Shown: positions 3,404 through 29,242 of the stretch, in pieces
Layout of the letters: the number at the start of each line of letters is the position of its first letter
Numbering within the stretch: the first letter of the stretch is position 1
From: an uncultured Bacteroidales bacterium
GTDB taxonomy: Bacteria; Bacteroidota; Bacteroidia; Bacteroidales; FEN-979
Assembly (NCBI GenBank): GCA_903915465.1
Contig: CAIWTA010000137.1
Location: 1-44,841 of the forward strand
DNA: 44,841 nt
Reading direction: 5' to 3'
Translations under genes and position numbers: made by a program
Notes under the pieces: model-generated
Database searches by the model: none
What the model was told of the DNA's origin: nothing
The model's input: only the letters and a program-made list of their open reading frames with translations

Positions 3404-6400
3404 ATGAAAAAAATTCAGTTATTTACCTTCTTTGTTTTAATCATTGTTCTGCCATACAAAGGGCTGTGCACCATTTTACATGTACCTGCAACTTACAACT
3501 CTATTCAGGAAGGTATCGATGCCTCTGTCGACGGAGATGTCGTTTTGGTTGAACCGGGTACATATTTTGAGAATTTATACCTGAACGGTAAAAATATAGT
3601 TCTTTGTTCCAATTATTTCATGACCAGTAATCCAGCATTCATTGCAAGTACCATCATTGATGGAAGCAATGCGGGACGCGTCATTACGATCAATAACTAT
3701 GAAAATTCATCCTGTCAGGTTATCGGGTTGACAATCCAGCATGGAAACTCCACGGTACCATGGACGCCTGTTGAGACAGATGGAGGAGGCGGGATTTTTA
3801 TATTGGATTCATCACCTCAAATCCACAATTGCATCATTCAAAATAACCAGTCATCTGGTTTTGGTGGGGGACTGTCGCTTTACGGTTCACTTTCAAGTGC
3901 AAAAGTGATGAATTGTACCATTCAGAATAATACAGCCGATAGTTTTGGCGGAGGCGTATTTATGGGTGATTGCAGTCCGGATGCAACAATTGTCAATTGT
4001 ATCATTACCGGTAACACGAATACAAATAATAACGGGTTTAATGGTGGCGGAGGCGGTGTGAACCTTTACCATTCCGGTAAACTGGAGAATTGTCTGATTA
4101 CGAATAACAGCGCTCCAAATTCACCGGTTGGCGGAGGTGGTGTTCAATGCGACTGGGCTGATATCGCAAACCACAGCACGCTCATTACCGGATGCACCAT
4201 TACCCAAAATACTGCTTTAAATTGGGGAGGAACGAGTTATGTGATCGAGGGCGGTGAGTTCCGGAATTGTATCATCTGGGGGAATACCGACAATCTTGGT
4301 AACCCTTCCAATTATGACGGGAATTCTTATGTTTATTGCTGTGCCGATCCCCTGCCGGCAGGCACAGGGAATATTTCTGCAGATCCGAATTTCGTTGATC
4401 CGGTTTTGGGCAATTTCAGGTTATCAACAGGAAGCCTTTGTATCAATTCAGGTGACAATTCTTTTGCTACCCAGACCTTTGACCTTGATGGAAATGCCAG
4501 GATTAATGACAATACAGTAGACATGGGTGCTTATGAAAATAGTGACTTAGCAGGAATTGAAGTGCAGATCGGATCCGGGTTTAATCAGACAAGCCAGTTT
4601 CCCATTTATTCATGCTACAATTACAATTACAGTCAGCAGATCTATCTTGGAAGTGAAATTACTGGTGGAGGAGGTTCTGCAGGACTTATTAAAAAGATCA
4701 GGTTCTTCTATACAGGAAGCGGTTCACAACCTTCTAAATGGGCTAACTGGACTGTTTACCTGGGAAATACTGCAAAGACTGAGTTTGCAAGCACGTCAGA
4801 TTGGGTACCGGTCACTTCAATGACGCAGGTCTTCACTGGAATAATTCCCAATCCCGTCGACGGAACATGGCTTGAAATTACCTTACCGGCTCCTTTTTAT
4901 TATTCCGGAAGCAACATTGTAGTTGCAGTGGATGAAAATTCCAGTGGTTATGACTGTACGGCCCAATGGGGCTCATTTTATTCCGGAGCGCCCCGCGGAC
5001 TCCATTATTACGATGATGGTACCAATCCCGATCCTGCATCGCCTCCTGATGGCATCATAGATCCTAGCATTGACCAGATACAGTTTCAGATTAACCCCGC
5101 TGTCGGATCAATTGAAGGTTTTGTCACCGAAGAGCCCGATTGTGCTGTTCCCATTGAAGGCGCAACCATCATCATCGGCGCTTATTCCACTTCTTCAGAT
5201 GCTTCCGGTTATTACCGGTTAGATTTACCCGTTGGTACCTATGATAATCTCACAGCTGTTTACCATGATGCAAGCCAGACCATTTCCTCCATTGATATCA
5301 CAGAAGGAAATACCACTACCCAGGATTTCTGCCTCGCACCTTATCTTGCACCACCGGTAGGTTTACAAGCCAGCATTACCGGACCGGCTCAGAATAATGT
5401 TCACCTGACCTGGATGGCCCCGGGGTCAGTTGCAGACCAATGGATCCATTGGGACAATGGAGCCATATACGGCGGACTTGGATATAACGCACCCATGACC
5501 TTTAGTGTTGCTTCCAGGTGGCCTGTCTCCGATATTGCACTTTATGATGGGACCTACCTCAAAAAAATCCGTTTCGTTCCTGCCGATGCAAATGCAGCAT
5601 ACACGTTAAAGGTGTGGAAAGGAAGCAATGCATCTAATTTGCTGCTTTCACAGGTTGTTGCCGATCCGATTATAAATGGATGGAATGAAGTAACACTTAC
5701 AACACCAATACTGATTGATGGCACTCAGGAACTATGGTTTGGTTATGAAATAGTTGAAACCGTAAACGGGTACCCTGCGGGTTTAGGCCCCGGACCGGCT
5801 GTTGTAGGGAAAGGTGATATGATCAACAGTGGAGGCGGATGGTTCTCCGTGAAAGAAGCATGGGGCTGGGAATTTAACTGGACAATCCAGGGTTTTGTTT
5901 CACAAAGCCCGGTTCTGGTTCCACAGCAGCTTGTACCCATGGTACAGAACACATCACCTCAACCTATCATAAATAATCCGGTAGATGCATCGGTAAAACC
6001 GCAAATCATTCAGTTCGTACAGGCGCCATCCTCAATATTACCATCAGGTGATCTCCCGGCCTCCGGTGAGATCCTGCCAAAGCCTGCAAACATGGCTCTT
6101 CTTGCTCCATCAGCAAGCATGACGGGATACAATGTTTACCGCGATAATGTCAAGATAGCCGATAACATTCCTCACCTGTTCTACAACGATCTTGCACTTC
6201 CCAAAGGAGGGTACGATTATGAAGTTTCTGCGCAATATGCTTTTGGGGAATCTATAAGGATCGGCCCGGTACATGTAGATATTTATACCTGCTTCCCTCC
6301 GACCGGAATAATGGTTTCCAATTCAACGCTGACAACAACCACAGCCAATCTTTCGTGGACACCATCCACGATTTCAACCAATCACCAGTGGGACCTTGAA

Positions 6401-14331: not shown

Positions 14332-14442
14332 ATTTACGATTGGACGATTTACGAGTTACGATTGAATTGCAAGAGTTACGATTGACGATTAACCTAATAA
14401 AAAATCTACAATCGTAAATCGTAAATCATGTTAATCGTAAAT
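14332..14442. repeat. Intergenic inverted repeat, TTTACGATT family, copy 1
   Basis: The left arm (14332-14364) and right arm (14409-14442) are inverted copies: matching blocks of 10, 9 and 9 bp separated by one short mismatched block and one mismatch. The arms are built from TTTACGATT words. The same arm sequence recurs at 26443-26607. It lies between the PorE-like gene and purM. Confidence 0.8.
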
Positions 14443-15660: not shown

Positions 15661-15672
15661 ATTATAAAATTA

Positions 15673-15806
15673 TCAATCCTGAACGCACCGGCCCGAAAAA
15701 CCGCCCGACTTGTTGTAGCTGGAGCGGTCCACGTACCCGCTGCTGTAGATGAGGTCCCGGACCCACGCGCCTGTGGCATCGGACTGCAAAGACGACCAGA
15801 AGTAAG
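15673..15806 (-). other. Candidate DGR-type variable region in paralogue 1
   Basis: The codons from GGC GCG TGG onward read as constant codons (TGG, CGG, CTC, GTG, CGC, AAG) interleaved with about a dozen variable ones, all ending in C: GGC, GTC, GAC, ATC, AGC, AGC, TAC, GAC, TCC, AGC, TAC, GGC. Each is derivable from AAC by changes at adenines only. The same positions vary between FSMP proteins. No template repeat or reverse transcriptase is in the window. One nearby codon (GGC where GTC is usual, before CGG TGC) does not fit. Confidence 0.5.
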
Positions 15807-16872
15807 CGTAGTAAGTAAGATAGTTGGAGCCGCCATTCCCGGTTCTGTAGCCACCCGGAAGAGCAGTGAAGCCGCTGCTGTTAGTAGCACCCGTATTAGG
15901 TGTTAACCAATGAGTTATACCTGTTTCTTTCATCTTCCCGCCTGCTATACTCTCACCACCCAAAAAGGTTGTAAGGGATGTCAACTCTGCATCAGTCGGT
16001 AAATGCCAGCCTATCGGGCAAATGCCAGGTACATTGCCCGTTGGTACTGGGCTCCAGGATGTTGTGTTGGTAGCCCCGTTCAGATATTGGACGATCTCTG
16101 CCCATTGGTATAAACCACCGTAAACATCACAATTGGATTCTAAATCGCTGTAACAGTATTTTTCAATAATACTGTTATTTGTTTGTTCACCTGAGCAGTT
16201 AATCCTTGTGCCAACGTTCAGATTTTGGGCAAACCAGCACTGAGCACCAATCAATACCGTGTTGTAGGTCTTGCCATCGCGGGTATCGGTCATAGGAGCT
16301 CCGCAGGAAAACGAACATGCAGCACTTGTCTGTGTCAACGTTGCCGCAGTTGAGTTTCCGCATGCGCTGTAAGCCCAGGCGTAACGGGTGTAAGCAGTGT
16401 TGCAAGTCAGTCCCGTTTCGGTCTTTGTAATAGTAGTGCCCATGTCGGTAGCCGTACCATAATCGTTGATGGTATTCCATTTATATCCTGTGGCACCGGG
16501 TACTGTATTCCAGTTCCAGATTATCTGTGTTACAGATGGAACATGCGTTCCTGCTGTGGGAACTACCGGTGGCGGACAACTGGCATTTAAAGTATACCAT
16601 AATCCATTCATAAATATAGAAAGAGACCCTGAACTATTCAATCCACAATTCGTACAATAAACCAAGAGCCCATCAGCAGGGTTTGAGATTGCATTTCGTT
16701 CAACCTGCGTCATCCGGGGTGGAAGAAATCCTTTGTTTGTTGATTTGACATCCAGCATCGCCGAATTATTGGGAGAGCTGCTATCAATATTAATTCCAAC
16801 CTGAGCAGAAAGTTGAAAGGTTATTGAGAGCATGATTGGCAGTATGGATATGATAAGTAAATGCTTTCTCAT
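15673..16872 (-). CDS. Secreted FSMP-domain protein, paralogue 1, with variable-looking 3' end
   Basis: 399 residues from the ATG at 16872 ([20 protein letters not shown], signal peptide ending before QVGIN); the frame is open 19 codons upstream, but those do not fit a signal peptide. The N-terminal block [21 protein letters not shown] ... GFLPPRMTQ is common in Bacteroidota surface proteins. An Fn3-like region follows (about 95-180). A Fibrobacter succinogenes major paralogous (FSMP) domain comes last (about 190-399: [47 protein letters not shown]). FSMP domains adopt C-type-lectin/FGE-like folds; ligands are unknown. The last 130 bases are unusually GC-rich with NNC codons (listed separately). 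It is a paralogue of the genes at 18381 and 19380. Confidence 0.82.
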
Positions 16873-16999
16873 AAGAAAAGGGGTATAATAAAGTTTTTGA
16901 TACGCAGCTAATAAGTTGCAAAAGTACAAATTTATATCAGATAATTAATAACAAATCGGCTGGATGGTGCAAATCTTATTTTGATGTGCTGGAATAAAT
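16873..16999 (-). repeat. Duplicated upstream/promoter block, copy 1
   Basis: The leader and promoter region of paralogue 1 is strongly similar to 20307-20434 upstream of paralogue 3. Shared stretches include AATAAAGTTTTTGAT, TACAAATTTAT and ATAACAAATCGGCTGGATGG. On the minus strand it holds a -7 box TACTTTTG (16926-16919). A TTTG upstream lies 25 bases away, longer than usual. Confidence 0.8.
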
Positions 17000-17454
17000 A
17001 GTTCAACACAAACATTGTTATCAAAGTATAATTTGGATACGGGACTGACTAAAAAGTTGTTTTTATTTTCTCGCAGAGGCTCGCTGATGAATCGCAGAGT
17101 TTCGCAGAATATTGATTATATGAATTTTAACTCTGCGTAACTTAGCGTAAAACTTTGCGAAACTCTGCGTGAAATTTTGTTTTTTTACTTTTTAGTCACC
17201 CCCTAAGGAAAGCCAATCCTCAACCTGGCCTTAGCCCAAGTTAAGCGGGATTTTCAAGTCCCAAGCGGCATTTTGGCTGAGTGGCATTTGCAATGTCTCT
17301 CAAATAGCCGAATCTGTGTTTTGGTAATATTGATTGATAAGGATTTTGGACAATGTTCCGGTATTTATTTAATGAGAATTCCGATTTATTAATAAAACAA
17401 AGGTGTTGGGCAAAATAGAAAACTGACCGTAATCATTATTGCGGGAAAGTGCAA
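17000..17454. other. Intergenic stretch, holds the inverted repeat only
   Basis: Apart from the inverted repeat at 17047-17197, no gene, RNA or promoter was recognised. The part from about 17200 to 17454 shows nothing I can name. Confidence 0.4.
17047..17197. repeat. Intergenic inverted repeat, GCAGAGTTTCGC family, copy 1
   Basis: Outer ends GACTAAAAAGT (17047-17057) and ACTTTTTAGTC (17187-17197) are perfect inverted copies. Inside, CGCAGAGTTTCGCAGA pairs with TTTGCGAAACTCTGCG on the right (15 of 16). The whole 151-bp element can form a long hairpin. The 14-mer CAGAGTTTCGCAGA (17095-17108) recurs at 27886-27899. Confidence 0.82.
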
Positions 17455-17868
17455 TTATAGCACATTCTTTTTCCAATTTTCAATCTTCAAACCAGGAATC
17501 CTCCAGAAATGATTTTCATTGTTGGTAACAAGGGTCATTTCATTTTCAATGGCCACTCAAGCTATTAAAAGATCAATGTCATCAATAGCGTTTCCAGAGA
17601 TCCTCAAGGTAGAGTATAATTCAGCGGAGATTTTGACGGATTTTTCGGACAATGGAAGAACCATATTTCCAGAAACAAAATCCTCAAATACACCCAATTG
17701 TTTCAAAGCGTTTTTAGAAAGCAATCCACTTAGTATCTCATAATAGGTAATCAGGCTGATTTCAATTACATCAAAATGATTCAGATAATTTTCAAAATTC
17801 GTTATAACATCCGAATCACCTTTAAAATAGTAAGAGATTATATCTGTATCAATCAGTACCCTCTTCAT
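17455..17868 (-). pseudogene. vapC: VapC-like PIN-domain toxin broken by an in-frame TGA
   Basis: The frame begins MKRVLIDTDIISYYFKGD (acidic Asp7/Asp9) and continues with ITYYEILSG (the conserved Glu) and DDIDLLIA (third acidic cluster), all typical of PIN-domain RNases that cleave RNA as VapC toxins. A TGA at 17559-17557 follows codon 103. Without a frame change the sequence continues for 33 more codons that clearly belong to the family: VAIENEMTLVTNNENHF, then RIPGLKIENW, to a TAA at 17457-17455. The intact length would be about 137 residues. The truncated product lacks the last strand and the TNN active-site position, so activity is unlikely. It overlaps the antitoxin frame by 20 bp, the usual vapBC arrangement. 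Confidence 0.82.
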
Positions 17869-18094
17869 TTCTTCTTCTGCTTCGCTGGCGATTCGATATT
17901 AAATTTTCAGTCAATTCAACAAAAATGTTGGTGTCAAGATTCTCCCAAGCTCCCGCAAAAGATAAAATTTTATCTTTATTACTGGGTGTCTGTTCAAGTT
18001 TTGATATGAATTCATTTAATTCATTCAGTCTGTTTGAAGGAATCCGCTGAATTCTTCGCAAAAGCCGACTCCTTATCTAGTTTTCTGTACTCAT
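17849..18094 (-). pseudogene. vapB: VapB-like antitoxin with an early in-frame TAG
   Basis: The body reads RIQRIPSNRLNELNEFISKL followed by a charged tail ending RRRNEEGTD, like small Bacteroidota antitoxins paired with PIN toxins. In the same frame an ATG at 18094 gives MSTEN, then a TAG (18079-18077), then IRSRLL and the body. This suggests an original product of about 81 residues with a nonsense change at codon 6. A TTG at 18061 preceded by AAGGAG seven bases away could restart translation and give 70 residues, so the antitoxin might still be made. It overlaps the toxin start by 20 bp. Confidence 0.6.
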
Positions 18095-18299
18095 GGCTCT
18101 CATCTTATTTTCTTCAAAATTATCAATTATTTGAGAACTATAAGTTTTTTTATCGCTTATGATCTTATGATTTGACAGGCAGAGCAAAAAAAAAGCTTCG
18201 GTTTCCCGGTAAACCGGTAAGTCGTAATACAAGGCCATGTTCAAAAAAATAAATCCGGCCGCTTAGCGATATTTATTCAATTGTTATATAGCTAATTTG
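18095..18299. other. Intergenic region, nothing recognised
   Basis: About 205 bp between the vapB remnant and the DUF1566-tail remnant. No coding or RNA feature was seen. Confidence 0.35.
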
Positions 18300-18380
18300 T
18301 TAAAAAGCCCGAACCGCACGCACACAGTAGGGGTAGAATTTAGCGTAGCTGTTTTAGATGCCATTATAGAAATCACCGAT
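18300..18380 (-). pseudogene. In-frame remnant of a DUF1566-type C-terminus after paralogue 2
   Basis: Directly after the TGA of paralogue 2 (18383-18381) the same frame continues IGDFYNGI, then TAA, then NSYAKFYPYCVRAVRAF and a final TAA (18302-18300). The ending VRAVRAF is the classic C-terminus of DUF1566/FSMP-like proteins, while paralogue 2 itself ends in the alternative RCLRD form. So an 81-bp piece of a second, different tail sits behind the active one. Its non-constant codons (TAT, ATC, AGC, TAC, TTC, TAC, CCC, TAC, TGT) again look derivable from AAC/AAT by adenine changes, and the internal TAA could come from AAA. Confidence 0.68.
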
Positions 18381-18498
18381 TCAGTCTCTGAGGCAGCGGA
18401 GGGGAAAGCCGTCCGCCTTGTAGTAGTTGTTTATGAAACTATAGTCACTGTGGAACGCTAGGTACCAGCCATTTGAAGCGCTGGACTGTGTACTGCTC
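18381..18498 (-). other. Candidate DGR-type variable region in paralogue 2
   Basis: Tail codons after TAC TGG AGC AGT ACA CAG are TCC AGC GCT TCA AAT GGC TGG TAC CTA GCG TTC CAC AGT GAC TAT AGT TTC ATA AAC AAC TAC TAC AAG GCG GAC GGC. Most variable ones are NNC, and all can be read as A-to-N changes of AAC/AAT/ACN codons. Constant words differ from paralogue 1, so a different template would be needed. Confidence 0.45.
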
Positions 18499-19286
18499 CA
18501 GTAATTGCCATTCGAGCCGCGAGTGTACAACGCACCATTGCCTTCGTACAGGGTCCCGGCAGCATGCATTTTTAATGCAGAGTACCATGGGCCAATCCAA
18601 TTTGTCCAGTTTCCACTCGCATCTACGTTGGTCCATTCAGTATATGTTGGTATGCGCCAGTCAGCGCCAAGTTCGAGTGTACATGGATCGTTGGCTGTCT
18701 GCCAGTCAAGGTTTTCATTGATATAGGTTATCCAGGTGGTATTGGGTGTTCGGGTTAAGTTATCATACTTATACCCCTGTTGGCGGTTAAATTGCCAGTA
18801 CCAGCCTGCAGAAGCTTCGGTGGCATCGTTAACAGCGGTTGCCTGGTGGTCAGCACCAAGGTTACTGGTAATCCAGCATTTTGAAAGTTCACCGGGGATA
18901 TTTGTTACTGTACCGTAAATAACTGTCTTGGTAACCGGTGCCACGGCTCCTGCTGCATGGTTAATTGTGATAAGATTGCCGCATGAAAAAGGTGGTACAA
19001 TTGTTCCTGTTCCATAAGCCACTTCTTTCCATAGATTATCAGTAGCAACAAAAATATACATTTTACTGTCGGTCGTACAAAAGACCTGCAAGCCATTTGC
19101 AGGGTTTGAAATTGTCAGTATCTGACTTTGCGATAATCGAGGAAGCAAGAACCCTTTGTTATTGAATTTCACATCCAGCCCGGCGGACTGGTTAGATTGA
19201 GCACCGTCAGTATTGATGCTCACCTGGGCAAATGATACACTGCTGAAATGCAGAAACATAACGATAAATATAGATATTTTTTTCAT
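18381..19286 (-). CDS. Secreted FSMP/DUF1566-like protein, paralogue 2
   Basis: 301 residues from the ATG at 19286 (MKKISIFIVMFLHFSSVSFA, signal peptide); nine further codons upstream are open but do not look like a signal. The N-terminal region AGLDVKFNNKGFLLPRLSQ ... NPANGLQVFCTTDSKMYIF is nearly identical to paralogue 3 (19380), showing recent duplication. The C-terminal half carries the lectin-like DUF1566/FSMP fold (WRIPTYTEW, GNYWSSTQS, GFPLRCLRD) and differs from the neighbours. It lies 93 bp downstream of paralogue 3 on the same strand and has no visible promoter of its own, so co-transcription is likely. Ligand unknown. Confidence 0.8.
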   Translation of the reverse strand: MKKISIFIVMFLHFSSVSFAQVSINTDGAQSNQSAGLDVKFNNKGFLLPRLSQSQILTISNPANGLQVFCTTDSKMYIFVATDNLWKEVAYGTGTIVPPFSCGNLITINHAAGAVAPVTKTVIYGTVTNIPGELSKCWITSNLGADHQATAVNDATEASAGWYWQFNRQQGYKYDNLTRTPNTTWITYINENLDWQTANDPCTLELGADWRIPTYTEWTNVDASGNWTNWIGPWYSALKMHAAGTLYEGNGALYTRGSNGNYWSSTQSSASNGWYLAFHSDYSFINNYYKADGFPLRCLRD

Positions 19287-19379
19287 GTTTTCAAATCGTG
19301 TCAAAAAGAACATTTGTTGTTTTTTATTTAGTAGACTTTGGGACTCACCTTCCTTGAGGGGGTATTAAGCTGGAGTTTG

Positions 19380-20306
19380 TCAATTCTTTAGACAGCGCAC
19401 AGAATAACCATTATTCTTACTTTGGTCGTATTTGAGTGTTTCGCTGGTGCTATAGAGCACATATCTGCACCAGACATTGTCCCAGAAACTCTCCACTGAT
19501 GAACTCCACCAGTAGTCAGTTCTGGAAAAGTAGTCGAACGCTCCACCGAGGACACGATAACCTGCCGGAACGGCTGTAAATCCGCTAACGTTGGTTGCCC
19601 CGGTGTTTGGGTTAGACCATAGACCAGTACCAGCCTCTATAGTACCGGTAGATTTCATTTTCCCGCCCGCTACACTTTCTCCTCCAAGAAATGTAATAAT
19701 TGTAGTCCACTCAGCATCCGTTGGAATATGCCAGTCAGTGGGACATATTCCCTGAACACCTTCTGTGTTTAAATATTGCATCATCTCATTCCATTGGTAA
19801 AGGCCACCATAAATGGTACAATTTGATTCAATGTCATTGTAGCAATATTTTTCAATAACACTGTTGTTTATTTGTTGCTGTGAACCAGCTATTATTGATC
19901 CGATATTCAGGTTTTCTTTGAACCAACACTGGGTTCCAATCTGAATCGTATTATAAGATTTTCCATCCCTGTTATCAGTTATGGGATTACCACATGAAAA
20001 AGGTATTACAATTGTTCCTGTTCCGTAAGCAACTTCTTTCCATAGATTAGCAACAGAAATAAAAATATACATTTTACTGTCGGTCGTACAAAAAACCTGT
20101 AAGCCATTTGCAGGGTTTGAAATCGTCTGAATCTGACTCAATGATAATCGGGGAGGCAAGAACCCTTTGTTGTTGAATTTCACATCCAGCCCTGCCGACG
20201 GGTCAGGTTGAGTGCCATCGGTATTAATTCCTACCTGTGCCGAAAGCTGAAAGGTTATTGACAAAAAGATTGCCAGAATGGCCATGATAAGTAAATGATT
20301 TTTCAT
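19380..20306 (-). CDS. Secreted FSMP-domain protein, paralogue 3
   Basis: 308 residues with the signal peptide MKNHLLIMAILAIFLSITFQ, nearly that of paralogue 1. The block [19 protein letters not shown] ... YGTGTIVIPFSCGNPIT is shared with paralogue 2. The FSMP domain follows: DNRDGKSYNTIQIGTQCWF, LYQWNEMMQYL, CPTDWHIPTDAEW, DYWWSSSVES, GYSVRCLKN. It therefore looks like a mosaic between paralogues 1 and 2. Its last 100 bases do not show the strict NNC pattern of the other two, which makes it a useful internal contrast. Its promoter region is a duplicate of that of paralogue 1. Cell-surface or secreted; ligand unknown. Confidence 0.82.
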   Translation of the reverse strand: MKNHLLIMAILAIFLSITFQLSAQVGINTDGTQPDPSAGLDVKFNNKGFLPPRLSLSQIQTISNPANGLQVFCTTDSKMYIFISVANLWKEVAYGTGTIVIPFSCGNPITDNRDGKSYNTIQIGTQCWFKENLNIGSIIAGSQQQINNSVIEKYCYNDIESNCTIYGGLYQWNEMMQYLNTEGVQGICPTDWHIPTDAEWTTIITFLGGESVAGGKMKSTGTIEAGTGLWSNPNTGATNVSGFTAVPAGYRVLGGAFDYFSRTDYWWSSSVESFWDNVWCRYVLYSTSETLKYDQSKNNGYSVRCLKN

Positions 20307-20434
20307 AGAAAAAGGGGGGTTAATAAAGTTTTTGATTAAGTAGCTATTAAGACATAAAGATACAAATTTATTTCAGATTTTTAATAACAAATCGGCTGGA
20401 TGGGGTAAATCTTATTTTGATGGGGTGGAATAAA
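20307..20434 (-). repeat. Duplicated upstream/promoter block, copy 2
   Basis: Counterpart of 16873-16999. On the minus strand it has TATCTTTA (20362-20355) at the position of the -7 box and the same CCGATTTGTTATTAA upstream. The similarity ends about 35 bp before the prfA promoter box. Confidence 0.8.
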
Positions 20435-20468
20435 CCATATCCTGAAAAATAAATACAGCCAATTTTTG

Positions 20469-20476
20469 TACCTTTG
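20469..20476 (+). promoter_or_regulatory. -7 promoter box for prfA
   Basis: TACCTTTG matches TAnnTTTG, 24 bp before the prfA ATG. No good TTTG partner is seen at 19-21 bases. It lies inside the longer possible reading of prfA, supporting the start at 20501. Confidence 0.5.
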
Positions 20477-20500
20477 CGCTTCCTTTTCAATCTAAGGAAG

Positions 20501-21571
20501 ATGTTAGAAAAAATCGAAGCCATTAAGCTGAAATACGATGAAATTGAAGCCCAGATTGCTGATCCTGCAGTGATGAGCGACATGAAGCGCTACATTAAGC
20601 TGAGCAAGGATTATAAGTCGCTTCAACCCATCATGGATGCTTTCGAAAAATACAAGAATATCCTTGCAAACCTTGACCATGCAAAGGAAATCGTCTATAA
20701 CGAAAAAGACGAAGAGTTCAGGGCTATGGCAAAAGAGGAAGTAGAAACGCTTTCGCGCCAGAAAGATCAGATGGAAGACGATATCAGGTTGTTGCTTGTA
20801 CCTGTTGATCCTGAAGATGCCAAAAATGCAGTTGTTGAGATCCGCGCCGGTACCGGCGGTGATGAAGCCAGCATCTTTGCAGGCGATCTTTACAGGATGT
20901 ACAATAAATTCTGTGAAAACCGCGGCTGGAAGGTAGAAATGGTAGATTTTACCGAAGGAACCGCAGGAGGATTTAAGGAAGTTATTTTTGATGTCAGCGG
21001 TGAAGGTGTATATGGTATTATGAAATATGAATCGGGTGTTCACCGGGTGCAGCGTGTTCCACAAACAGAAACCCAGGGAAGGGTTCATACTTCTGCAGCA
21101 ACTGTAGCAATTTTACCTGAGGCTGATGAATTCGAAGTAGAAGTAAAAGCTTCAGATGTTCGTAAAGACACTTTCTGCTCTTCCGGTCCCGGCGGTCAAT
21201 CCGTGAACACAACCTATTCCGCCGTTCGCCTGACTCATGTTCCTTCAGGAATTGTGGTAAGTTGCCAGGATGAAAAATCCCAGATCAAGAATTTTGAAAA
21301 AGCCATGAAAGTATTACGGTCAAGGCTTTATGAACTGGAACACCAAAAATACCTAGACGAGATCTCCAAGAAAAGGAAAACCATGGTTTCCACAGGCGAC
21401 CGTTCTGCCAAAATCCGTACTTATAACTATCCGCAAAGCCGGGTTACTGACCATCGGATCAACCTTACCATGTATAACCTTGCGGTGGTCATGGACGGAG
21501 ATGTAATGCCGCTCATCGAAGCGCTTCAATTGGCGGAAAATGCCGAGAAGATGAAAGAAGCAGTAAGTTGA
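20501..21571 (+). CDS. prfA: Peptide chain release factor 1
   Basis: 356 residues from the ATG at 20501 ([20 protein letters not shown]), the usual length. The open frame begins nine codons earlier, but homologues start here and AAGGAAG precedes the ATG. RF1 reads UAA and UAG and triggers peptide release on the ribosome. Motifs: [20 protein letters not shown], the [19 protein letters not shown] segment of RF1, and the catalytic Gly-Gly-Gln at 231-233 within [11 protein letters not shown], followed by the DEKSQIKN segment. It marks the right border of the minus-strand accessory island. Confidence 0.97.
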
Positions 21572-22486: not shown

Positions 22487-22509
22487 ACAAACTGCTATCT
22501 GTTGACTTC

Positions 22510-22613
22510 AATGCAGGAATGCGGGAATGCAGGAATGCGGGAATGCGGGAATGAAGGAATGCAGGAATGCAGAAATGCAGGAATGCGGGAATGTGGGAAT
22601 GTAGGAATTAGGG
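22510..22613. repeat. Tandem array, 13 units of 8 bp
   Basis: Units are AATGCAGG, AATGCGGG and close variants (AATGAAGG, AATGTGGG, AATTAGGG), in perfect period 8 for 104 bp. It fills the gap between the convergent pyrF and AlkD-like genes. It is open in several frames, but no gene signal was seen. Confidence 0.93.
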
Positions 22614-22633
22614 ATTCGTAAATTGCTTTTCTT

Positions 22634-26436: not shown

Positions 26437-26442
26437 TTTTTA

Positions 26443-26607
26443 TTTACGACTGACACGATTTACGATTTACGATTATTATTGTCGATCTACGAGTTACGAT
26501 TTCATTTCTATACTAAATAATGATAAAGCTTCTTTTCTCAAATATAGTCGTCAATCGTAAATATGTTAAAAATTCAATCGTAAATCGTAAATCGTGCCAG
26601 TCGTAAA
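26443..26607. repeat. Intergenic inverted repeat, TTTACGATT family, copy 2
   Basis: Arms at 26443-26474 and 26576-26607 are 32 bp each and inverted with 31 of 32 matches; the centre is about 100 bp and also holds TTACGATT words. The arm matches the right arm of copy 1 (14409-14442) at 29 of 32 positions, all three differences being transitions. It starts 7 bp after the htpG stop. Confidence 0.92.
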
Positions 26608-26708
26608 TGATTCTTCAAAATGAGCATCTTTGTTAACAATAGTTTAATCAAAATAGTCAAACAAATCACAGTATTAATTTATTAATTTCGCAAAACAAAA
26701 AAATCACT

Positions 26709-28893: not shown

Positions 28894-28913
28894 GGTGATT
28901 GGTTGATTATTTT

Positions 28914-29011
28914 CAGATCTCGGATCTCACATCTCACATCTCAGATCTCGGATCTCAGATCTCAGATCTCGGATCTCGGATCTCGGATCTCGGATCTCAC
29001 ATCTCACATCT
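28914..29011. repeat. Tandem array, 14 units of 7 bp
   Basis: Fourteen perfect 7-bp units of only three kinds, CAGATCT, CGGATCT and CACATCT. Starting at 28914 the order is CAG, CGG, CAC, CAC, CAG, CGG, CAG, CAG, CGG, CGG, CGG, CGG, CAC, CAC (each followed by ATCT). It lies 18 bp before the DUF4492 start. Confidence 0.95.
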
Positions 29012-29029
29012 ACTACCGAATGTCGGATA

Positions 29030-29242
29030 ATGAACTTCTTCAAAAAAATCTTTCTCTTCTATTATGATGGATTCCGGTCGATGACGGTTGGGAAAAAGCT
29101 CTGGATCGTCATCCTGATCAAACTTTTTATCATTTTTATTATTCTTCGGCTTATCTTTTTTCCCAATTTCCTCAAATCTAAGTTTTCGGGTGATAAAGAG
29201 CGTGGTGACTACGTTCGTGAACAGTTAATCAAAAGGAAATAA
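29030..29242 (+). CDS. DUF4492 family small membrane protein
   Basis: 70 residues: an N-terminal FFKKIFLFYYDGFRSMTVGK segment, one membrane helix (about 23-44), and a basic C-terminus ending EQLIKRK. This matches DUF4492, a Bacteroidota family found immediately upstream of cydAB. Its role is unknown; the genomic link suggests a part in assembly or regulation of cytochrome bd. The gap to cydA is 92 bp and contains a separate promoter, so cydAB can also be transcribed without it. Confidence 0.82.
   Translation: MNFFKKIFLFYYDGFRSMTVGKKLWIVILIKLFIIFIILRLIFFPNFLKSKFSGDKERGDYVREQLIKRK

Follow-up and report, generated by a model that had tools for sequence, protein, structure and literature searches.

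Introduction

In diversity-generating retroelements (DGRs), a reverse transcriptase (RT) copies an adenine-rich template repeat (TR) into mutated cDNA, which replaces the variable region (VR), so that a C-type-lectin-like surface protein varies in its ligand-facing tail. In canonical homing, the cDNA is joined near the 3' end of the VR. For DGRs of the human microbiome, the available part of one study lists 47 putative variable proteins with DUF1566 and 9 with Fib_succ_major (PMC4159848). The system described below resembles them, as far as that part goes, in its target domains, its C-terminal VR and its adenine-only TR-VR differences; unlike it, the same part of the source makes no mention of remnant or tandem tails. 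Remnants have been described in cyanobacteria, where the accessible sections report all3226, with TR-VR homology and no RT nearby, and an RT-only remnant in Anabaena sp. 90 (PMC7517822). Our locus likewise consists of decayed or dispersed DGR parts, but differs from the remnants in those sections in that a VR end, a hairpin and an avd start lie behind a target from a different class. Finally, homing of BPP-1 needs a hairpin or cruciform behind the VR, for which the available text gives stems of 7-10 bp and 4-nt GRNA loops (PMC3240598). Here too a GC-rich inverted repeat lies shortly behind the VR, but compared with the BPP-1 hairpin of that text the stems have 4-5 bp and the 3-nt loops end in A. 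The open-licence literature on DGR remnants with avd or tail exchange yielded no title on two tail classes in series, and no paper there brought diversity-generating retroelements together with FISUMP.

Two loci of relatives allow a direct comparison with the window, the whole stretch of 44,841 nucleotides analysed here. Contig CAINEZ010000250.1 of the uncultured Bacteroidetes bacterium AlinenLipids_bin-7249 (G048:C250, locus L167), which belongs to the window's taxonomic order, carries a complete DGR, with a target ending in VRAVRAF and a stop, a hairpin, Avd, TR and RT. The two share the VRAVRAF target, the 30-nt offset of the hairpin and an avd starting MALYYDLPVYR (nucleotide identity in Table 1), but of the VR the window retains no more than the 3' part, and of avd no more than 13 codons; TR and RT are absent. 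The twin DGRs of G025:C169, from the window's family, have both tail classes side by side and a truncated second avd, as does the window; there, however, TRs and RTs are present and the tails are unfused.

The island carrying the relic

The features of the locus are collected in Table 1. The window is contig C137 of an assembly of 4.07 Mb in 329 contigs (98.95% complete). In 18 of 29 relatives' loci, including 3 of the 4 congeners, prfA stands directly behind the AIR-synthase-like gene, and none of the 29 has a match to P1, P2, P3 or the PIN gene in flanks of up to 1.5 kb. The other 11 loci (four with a weak partial prfA match farther off, seven without prfA in the flank) do not speak for an empty site, since prfA does not adjoin there. 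Because the flanking genes meet directly in the 18 loci, we read the P1-P2-relic-P3 island as an insertion in the window's lineage, which is simpler than the alternative, a loss in all these relatives. No strain intermediate between an intact and the present state was found among the relatives examined.

Table 1. Features of the island, with positions in the window, strand and basis or remarks.
Feature	Position	Strand	Basis or remarks
Stretch between AIR-synthase-like gene and prfA, most simply read as inserted; carries P1, P2, relic, P3 and VapBC-like pair	15661..20503		Relatives' loci
P1, FISUMP protein of third tail kind	15673..16872	-	Same island
VapC-like pseudogene, in-frame TAA	17467..17868	-	With VapB-like remnant 17906-18052
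avd, first 13 codons (MALYYDLPVYRET), then truncated	18200..18238	-	tblastn E 2e-4; agrees with the avd start of L167 at 33/39 nt
Degenerate DGR target hairpin TCGC-TAA-GCGG, 30 nt past relic stop	18259..18269	-	Pattern NCGC-NNN-GCGN behind VRAVR-type ends
Relic: last 26 codons and stop of VRAVRAF-type DGR VR, one internal TAA	18300..18380	-	Ungapped alignment to TRs on L231 and L167; intact counterparts on own C195, C29, C220
P2, FISUMP-like protein ending in RCLRD and a stop	18381..19286	-	Own tail is a DGR VR of second class
VR of P2, matched to TR_A of G030:C29	18383..18565	-	183 nt gapless
P3, FISUMP protein	19380..20306	-	270 nt of 5' part 84% like P2's

Identity of the relic as the 3' end of a DGR variable region

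Past the TGA of P2 (18381-18383, minus strand), the frame of P2 reads IGDFYNGI, a stop, NSYAKFYPYCVRAVRAF and a final stop, spanning 18380-18300 exactly (ATC GGT GAT TTC TAT AAT GGC ATC TAA AAC AGC TAC GCT AAA TTC TAC CCC TAC TGT GTG CGT GCG GTT CGG GCT TTT TAA). An earlier note on this DNA, whose positions and residues were exact, had seen here the relic of another DUF1566 tail subtype, placed in series and in frame behind that of P2, and both points are borne out. The relic aligns without gaps to the TRs of two relatives' DGRs (TR_B and the G048 TR), with local scores of 64 and 67.5; dinucleotide shuffles gave means of 16.4 and 18.0 and a maximum of 34, and none of 1000 reached the relic's score for either of these independent TRs, a similarity far above chance. 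The place of the relic is also that of the highest-scoring 81-mer in the whole window (both strands, 20-nt steps). Given the gapless alignment to two TRs and the shuffles, we identify the relic as the 3' portion of a DGR VR of the Lcl_C/DUF1566 kind. With the last 26 codons only, it does not reach the cut-off of the whole domain (PF07603), and a PF07603 search of the organism's own genome listed P2's own tail and not the relic.

As in a DGR remnant, the changes from the TRs are concentrated at TR adenines. The relic differs from TR_B at 14 of 30 A positions and 10 of 44 others (Fisher P 0.029), and from the G048 TR at 14 of 30 and 9 of 44 (P 0.017), an excess that is modest, the relic being short and also decayed. 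Its variable codons end in C or T in 17 of 19 cases, as expected from AAC and AAT codons, so that they do fit adenine mutagenesis, as had been suggested. The further suggestion that the internal TAA came from AAA by the same process was rejected: both known TRs have CAG at this codon, and Q is encoded there in 22 of 32 VRAVR-type ends, a stop occurring in the relic alone. The TAA therefore looks like decay.

The first 9 nt (TGA ATC GGT, P2's stop included) align poorly, so that the joint can be placed only approximately, probably within P2's stop or the next 6 nt. Among the loci compared, which gave 101 distinct VR-like ends closed by a stop (ends lacking an upstream W[TSA][SGA] having been dropped beforehand), a tail behind a tail was seen once, here only. 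Exact-pattern scans for the relic end in viral contigs and genome contigs gave 0 matches.

A hairpin and an avd start follow the relic

Behind the relic stands a degenerate target hairpin at the usual offset; the same distance of 30 nt is found at L156 (the L167 place), L223 and L288. Of 32 VRAVR-type ends, 12 are followed by the pattern NCGC-NNN-GCGN, and of 68 RC-type ends, 7, against 0.28 and 0.51 in mononucleotide shuffles of the same stretches. Because the window's hairpin also lies no more than 160 nt from P2's stop, both groups include it; a 69th RC end had too little sequence downstream and was left out. Folding of the relic's hairpin is weak, no better than that of shuffles (z -0.53). 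In several genera (L229, L231, L167) a hairpin ACCGC-NNA-GCGGT, with a 3-nt loop where phage DGRs have a 4-nt GRNA loop, lies behind tails of two DGR classes. Such a hairpin, common to two target classes, offers a homing signal that can be tested. On contig C195 of the organism's own genome (L024), 4030-4400 holds a VRAVRAF gene followed by a hairpin, CCGCGTAGCGG, and by ATGGCAATGT, which resembles the start of avd but ends after a short distance.

The hairpin is followed, 62 nt past the relic stop, by the start of avd (ATGGCCTTGTATTACGACTTACCGGTTTACCGGGAAACC, translated MALYYDLPVYRET). The fragment is short, with 13 clear codons only; weak similarity to avd runs on to about 18113. Where avd clearly starts behind other VR ends (11 cases), it does so 41-81 nt past the stop, a range that includes the distance from the relic but not the 143 nt from P2's stop, and we therefore assign the avd start to the relic's gene. 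The order VR, hairpin, avd is that of a DGR. The earlier note missed this continuation: what remains is the front end of a cassette, not just a spare C-terminus.

P2 belongs to a second DGR class

The tail of P2 itself (KADGFPLRCLRD and a stop) groups with those of C217, C226, C144 and others. The match of C217 to P2 covers P2 residues 30-301 at 63%, and that of a G005 protein extends over almost the full length at 68%. In the FISUMP/Fib_succ_major model TIGR02145, P2 scores 24.4 bits, below the curated cut-off of 41.65, which P1 and P3 pass. The TR of this class (TR_A) reads GSNGNYWSSTQNDATNGWNLNFNSGNSNMNNNNKA(N/Y)GFSARCVRD, followed by avd and RT, on G030:C29 and G025:C169, in the window's own family; over 60 nt, TR_A differs from the VR at 10 A and 0 other positions on the former contig and at 11 A and 0 others on the latter. 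The VR of P2 is changed from TR_A, a reference from another genus, at 22 of 57 A positions and 26 of 126 others (P 0.0096), a weaker excess than that of C217 (19/57 A, 6/126 others). Taken together, 11 P2-type tails of the organism's own genome differ from TR_A at 250 of 588 A positions versus 180 of 1299 others (C 90/532, G 58/469, T 32/298). The P2-type tails are thus DGR VRs of a second class.

Two side observations concern this class. On own contig C179 (L407, minus strand, about 3990-4045), an orphan P2-type VR piece of about 52 nt (TNGWFLNFNSAHCYMDGSS) lies outside any FISUMP gene and differs from TR_A at 8 of 21 A positions and 1 of 31 others. FISUMP proteins like P2 also occur in G013, G015, G016 and G021 (39, 4, 17 and 16 matches counted), genomes in which there is no RVT_1 match.

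DGRs in relatives and in the organism's own genome

Between TR and VR of G048:C250 there are 13 A differences and 0 others over 60 nt. Its Avd passes the bAvd model PF22296 (70.8 bits, cut-off 40) and stays below the cut-off of NF033474 (59.8 bits, cut-off 80). TR_B stands beside an RT on G025:C169, and is closer to the window, being of its own family, than the G048 TR. G025:C169 carries both DGR classes in tandem, and only 43 codons are left of the second avd there; with TR_A as query, the TR_B place is matched over 99 nt at 76%. Truncated avd starts also lie behind VR tails on G022:C111 (38 codons matched) and G030:C134 (35 codons matched). At L273 (G003:C76), comparison with TR_B gave no significant adenine excess (16/46, 19/77, P 0.16). 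The RVT_1 scan covered 41 genomes, G025, G030 and G036 standing outside it: the RTs of these three were found by reading their contigs, that of G036 as a partial frame. An Avd search of viral contigs found 16 loci at 28-39% identity. Among the relatives, the states range from twin DGRs that are still alive down to bare remnants, which makes it possible to study what becomes of DGR target families once the retroelement is lost.

In the organism's own assembly (G000) we counted 34 Fib_succ_major and 18 Lcl_C matches, partly overlapping. VRAVRAF-kind tails occur on four other contigs, C195 and C220 (both VRAVRAF and a stop), C29 (VRAIRTF and a stop) and C144 (VRAVRSF, mid-ORF). We found no DGR-type RT at the locus, and the L167 RT as query had no match in the assembly at E 1e-30. 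The lone RVT_1 match of the genome, on C300 (L019, 1826-2847), was rejected as a DGR RT: Rfam RF02012 (98.1 bits) and TIGR04416 mark it as a degenerate group II intron, with the RT ORF broken in two. No avd match was found in the assembly at E 1e-3, and no adenine-rich TR at the locus; those own matches to TR_A, TR_B and the G048 TR that were compared letter by letter are VRs, and the remaining matches are short. The DGR core could be missing from the assembly because of its 329 contigs and the several FISUMP copies near contig ends; we infer, however, that the RT has been lost from the organism rather than merely left unassembled. As far as the assembly shows, the organism keeps dozens of tails that look or test like DGR VRs, and no enzyme to rewrite them.

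Origin of the arrangement

We consider it probable, at roughly 0.85, that relic, hairpin and avd start are the front end of a decayed VRAVRAF-class DGR cassette lying behind P2, a target of another DGR class. Two deletions would have produced the present state. The starting arrangement may have been two DGR classes in tandem, as on G025:C169, with a living VRAVRAF (Lcl_C/DUF1566) target gene followed by hairpin and avd, ordered and spaced as in intact cassettes. One deletion would have joined P2's stop to about the tryptophan (W) codon of the neighbouring target's VR, with loss of that target's 5' part; the other would have removed avd from codon 13 onward, together with the DGR core holding TR and RT. 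An odd in-frame tail can thus be read as a DGR scar. Decayed DGR loci are a kind already known, and the window is a new instance.

Of the other explanations, a possible if less probable one is that a full DGR never stood at this place, and that a copy of the target spread together with a downstream piece comprising VR, hairpin and avd start. The truncated avd starts behind VR tails on G022:C111 and G030:C134, and the avd-like ATGGCAATGT past the hairpin on own C195, would suit such dispersal; the truncations, however, have no common end point, and the outcome would look the same as decay in place.

The earlier note had explained the two tails by recombination, or by a cassette of tails, both of which are unproven; its subtype, series and adenine fit stand, but its origin of the TAA does not. 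We hold it unlikely that P2 once ended in VRAVRAF and received its RCLRD tail upstream by homologous recombination, the old tail being left behind. The exchange would be easy, since the two TR classes are homologous, as the 76% match shows, and both tail classes are present on own C144. Against it, P2 shows its RCLRD class far ahead of the tail as well, as seen in its matches to C217 and to the G005 protein, and the relic begins near the W codon, in mid-VR, with avd as its downstream partner at the usual distance.

Aberrant homing, with cDNA of an RCLRD-class TR joined by template switching to a VRAVRAF-class site through a common hairpin, appears improbable. CCGC-NNA-GCGG does lie behind both classes (with the looser pattern at the frequencies given above), and an orphan VR piece outside any FISUMP gene is present on own C179, but the joint of the relic lies 78 nt upstream of the VR 3' end, unlike canonical cDNA joining, and the assembly has no RT. 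It is an equally remote conjecture that the two classes share one homing hairpin and exchange tails by cross-homing, P2 with its VRAVRAF end and hairpin being a frozen product; were this so, P2 would be open to rewriting through either class, given an RT in trans. A chance open frame behind P2 is refuted by the shuffles and by the hairpin and avd start in register, even though the shared frame has no significance by itself (1 in 3 by chance).

Other features of the island and window

P1 has a third kind of tail. Across 16 aligned own tails of this kind, mean entropy over the 13 variable codons is 1.78 bits at the first codon position, 1.63 at the second and 0.90 at the third, a DGR-like mark; no TR for this kind was found.

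The VapBC-like pair is probably an unrelated neighbour. Its closest homologue, 83% identical, lies on JAIFLU010000058.1, and it also matches the VapBC behind the RT of G048:C250 (VapC 52% identical). We rejected VapBC as evidence of a cassette part: avd or RT of this kind stands near 1 of 80 VapC loci (E 1e-5), that one being the G048 contig itself, besides two weak avd-like matches in Nostoc (L342, L344). Within loci L164-L235, VapBC is linked at L167 and L179 only, both the same place.

Elsewhere in the window, short tandem arrays lie at 22494-22629 and 28899-29031, built of an 8-nt unit (AATGCRGG) and a 14-nt unit (TCAGATCTCGGATC, with variants), and dispersed AATCGTAAAT repeats, in direct and inverted copies, are found between genes at 14402-14442 and 26442-26608.
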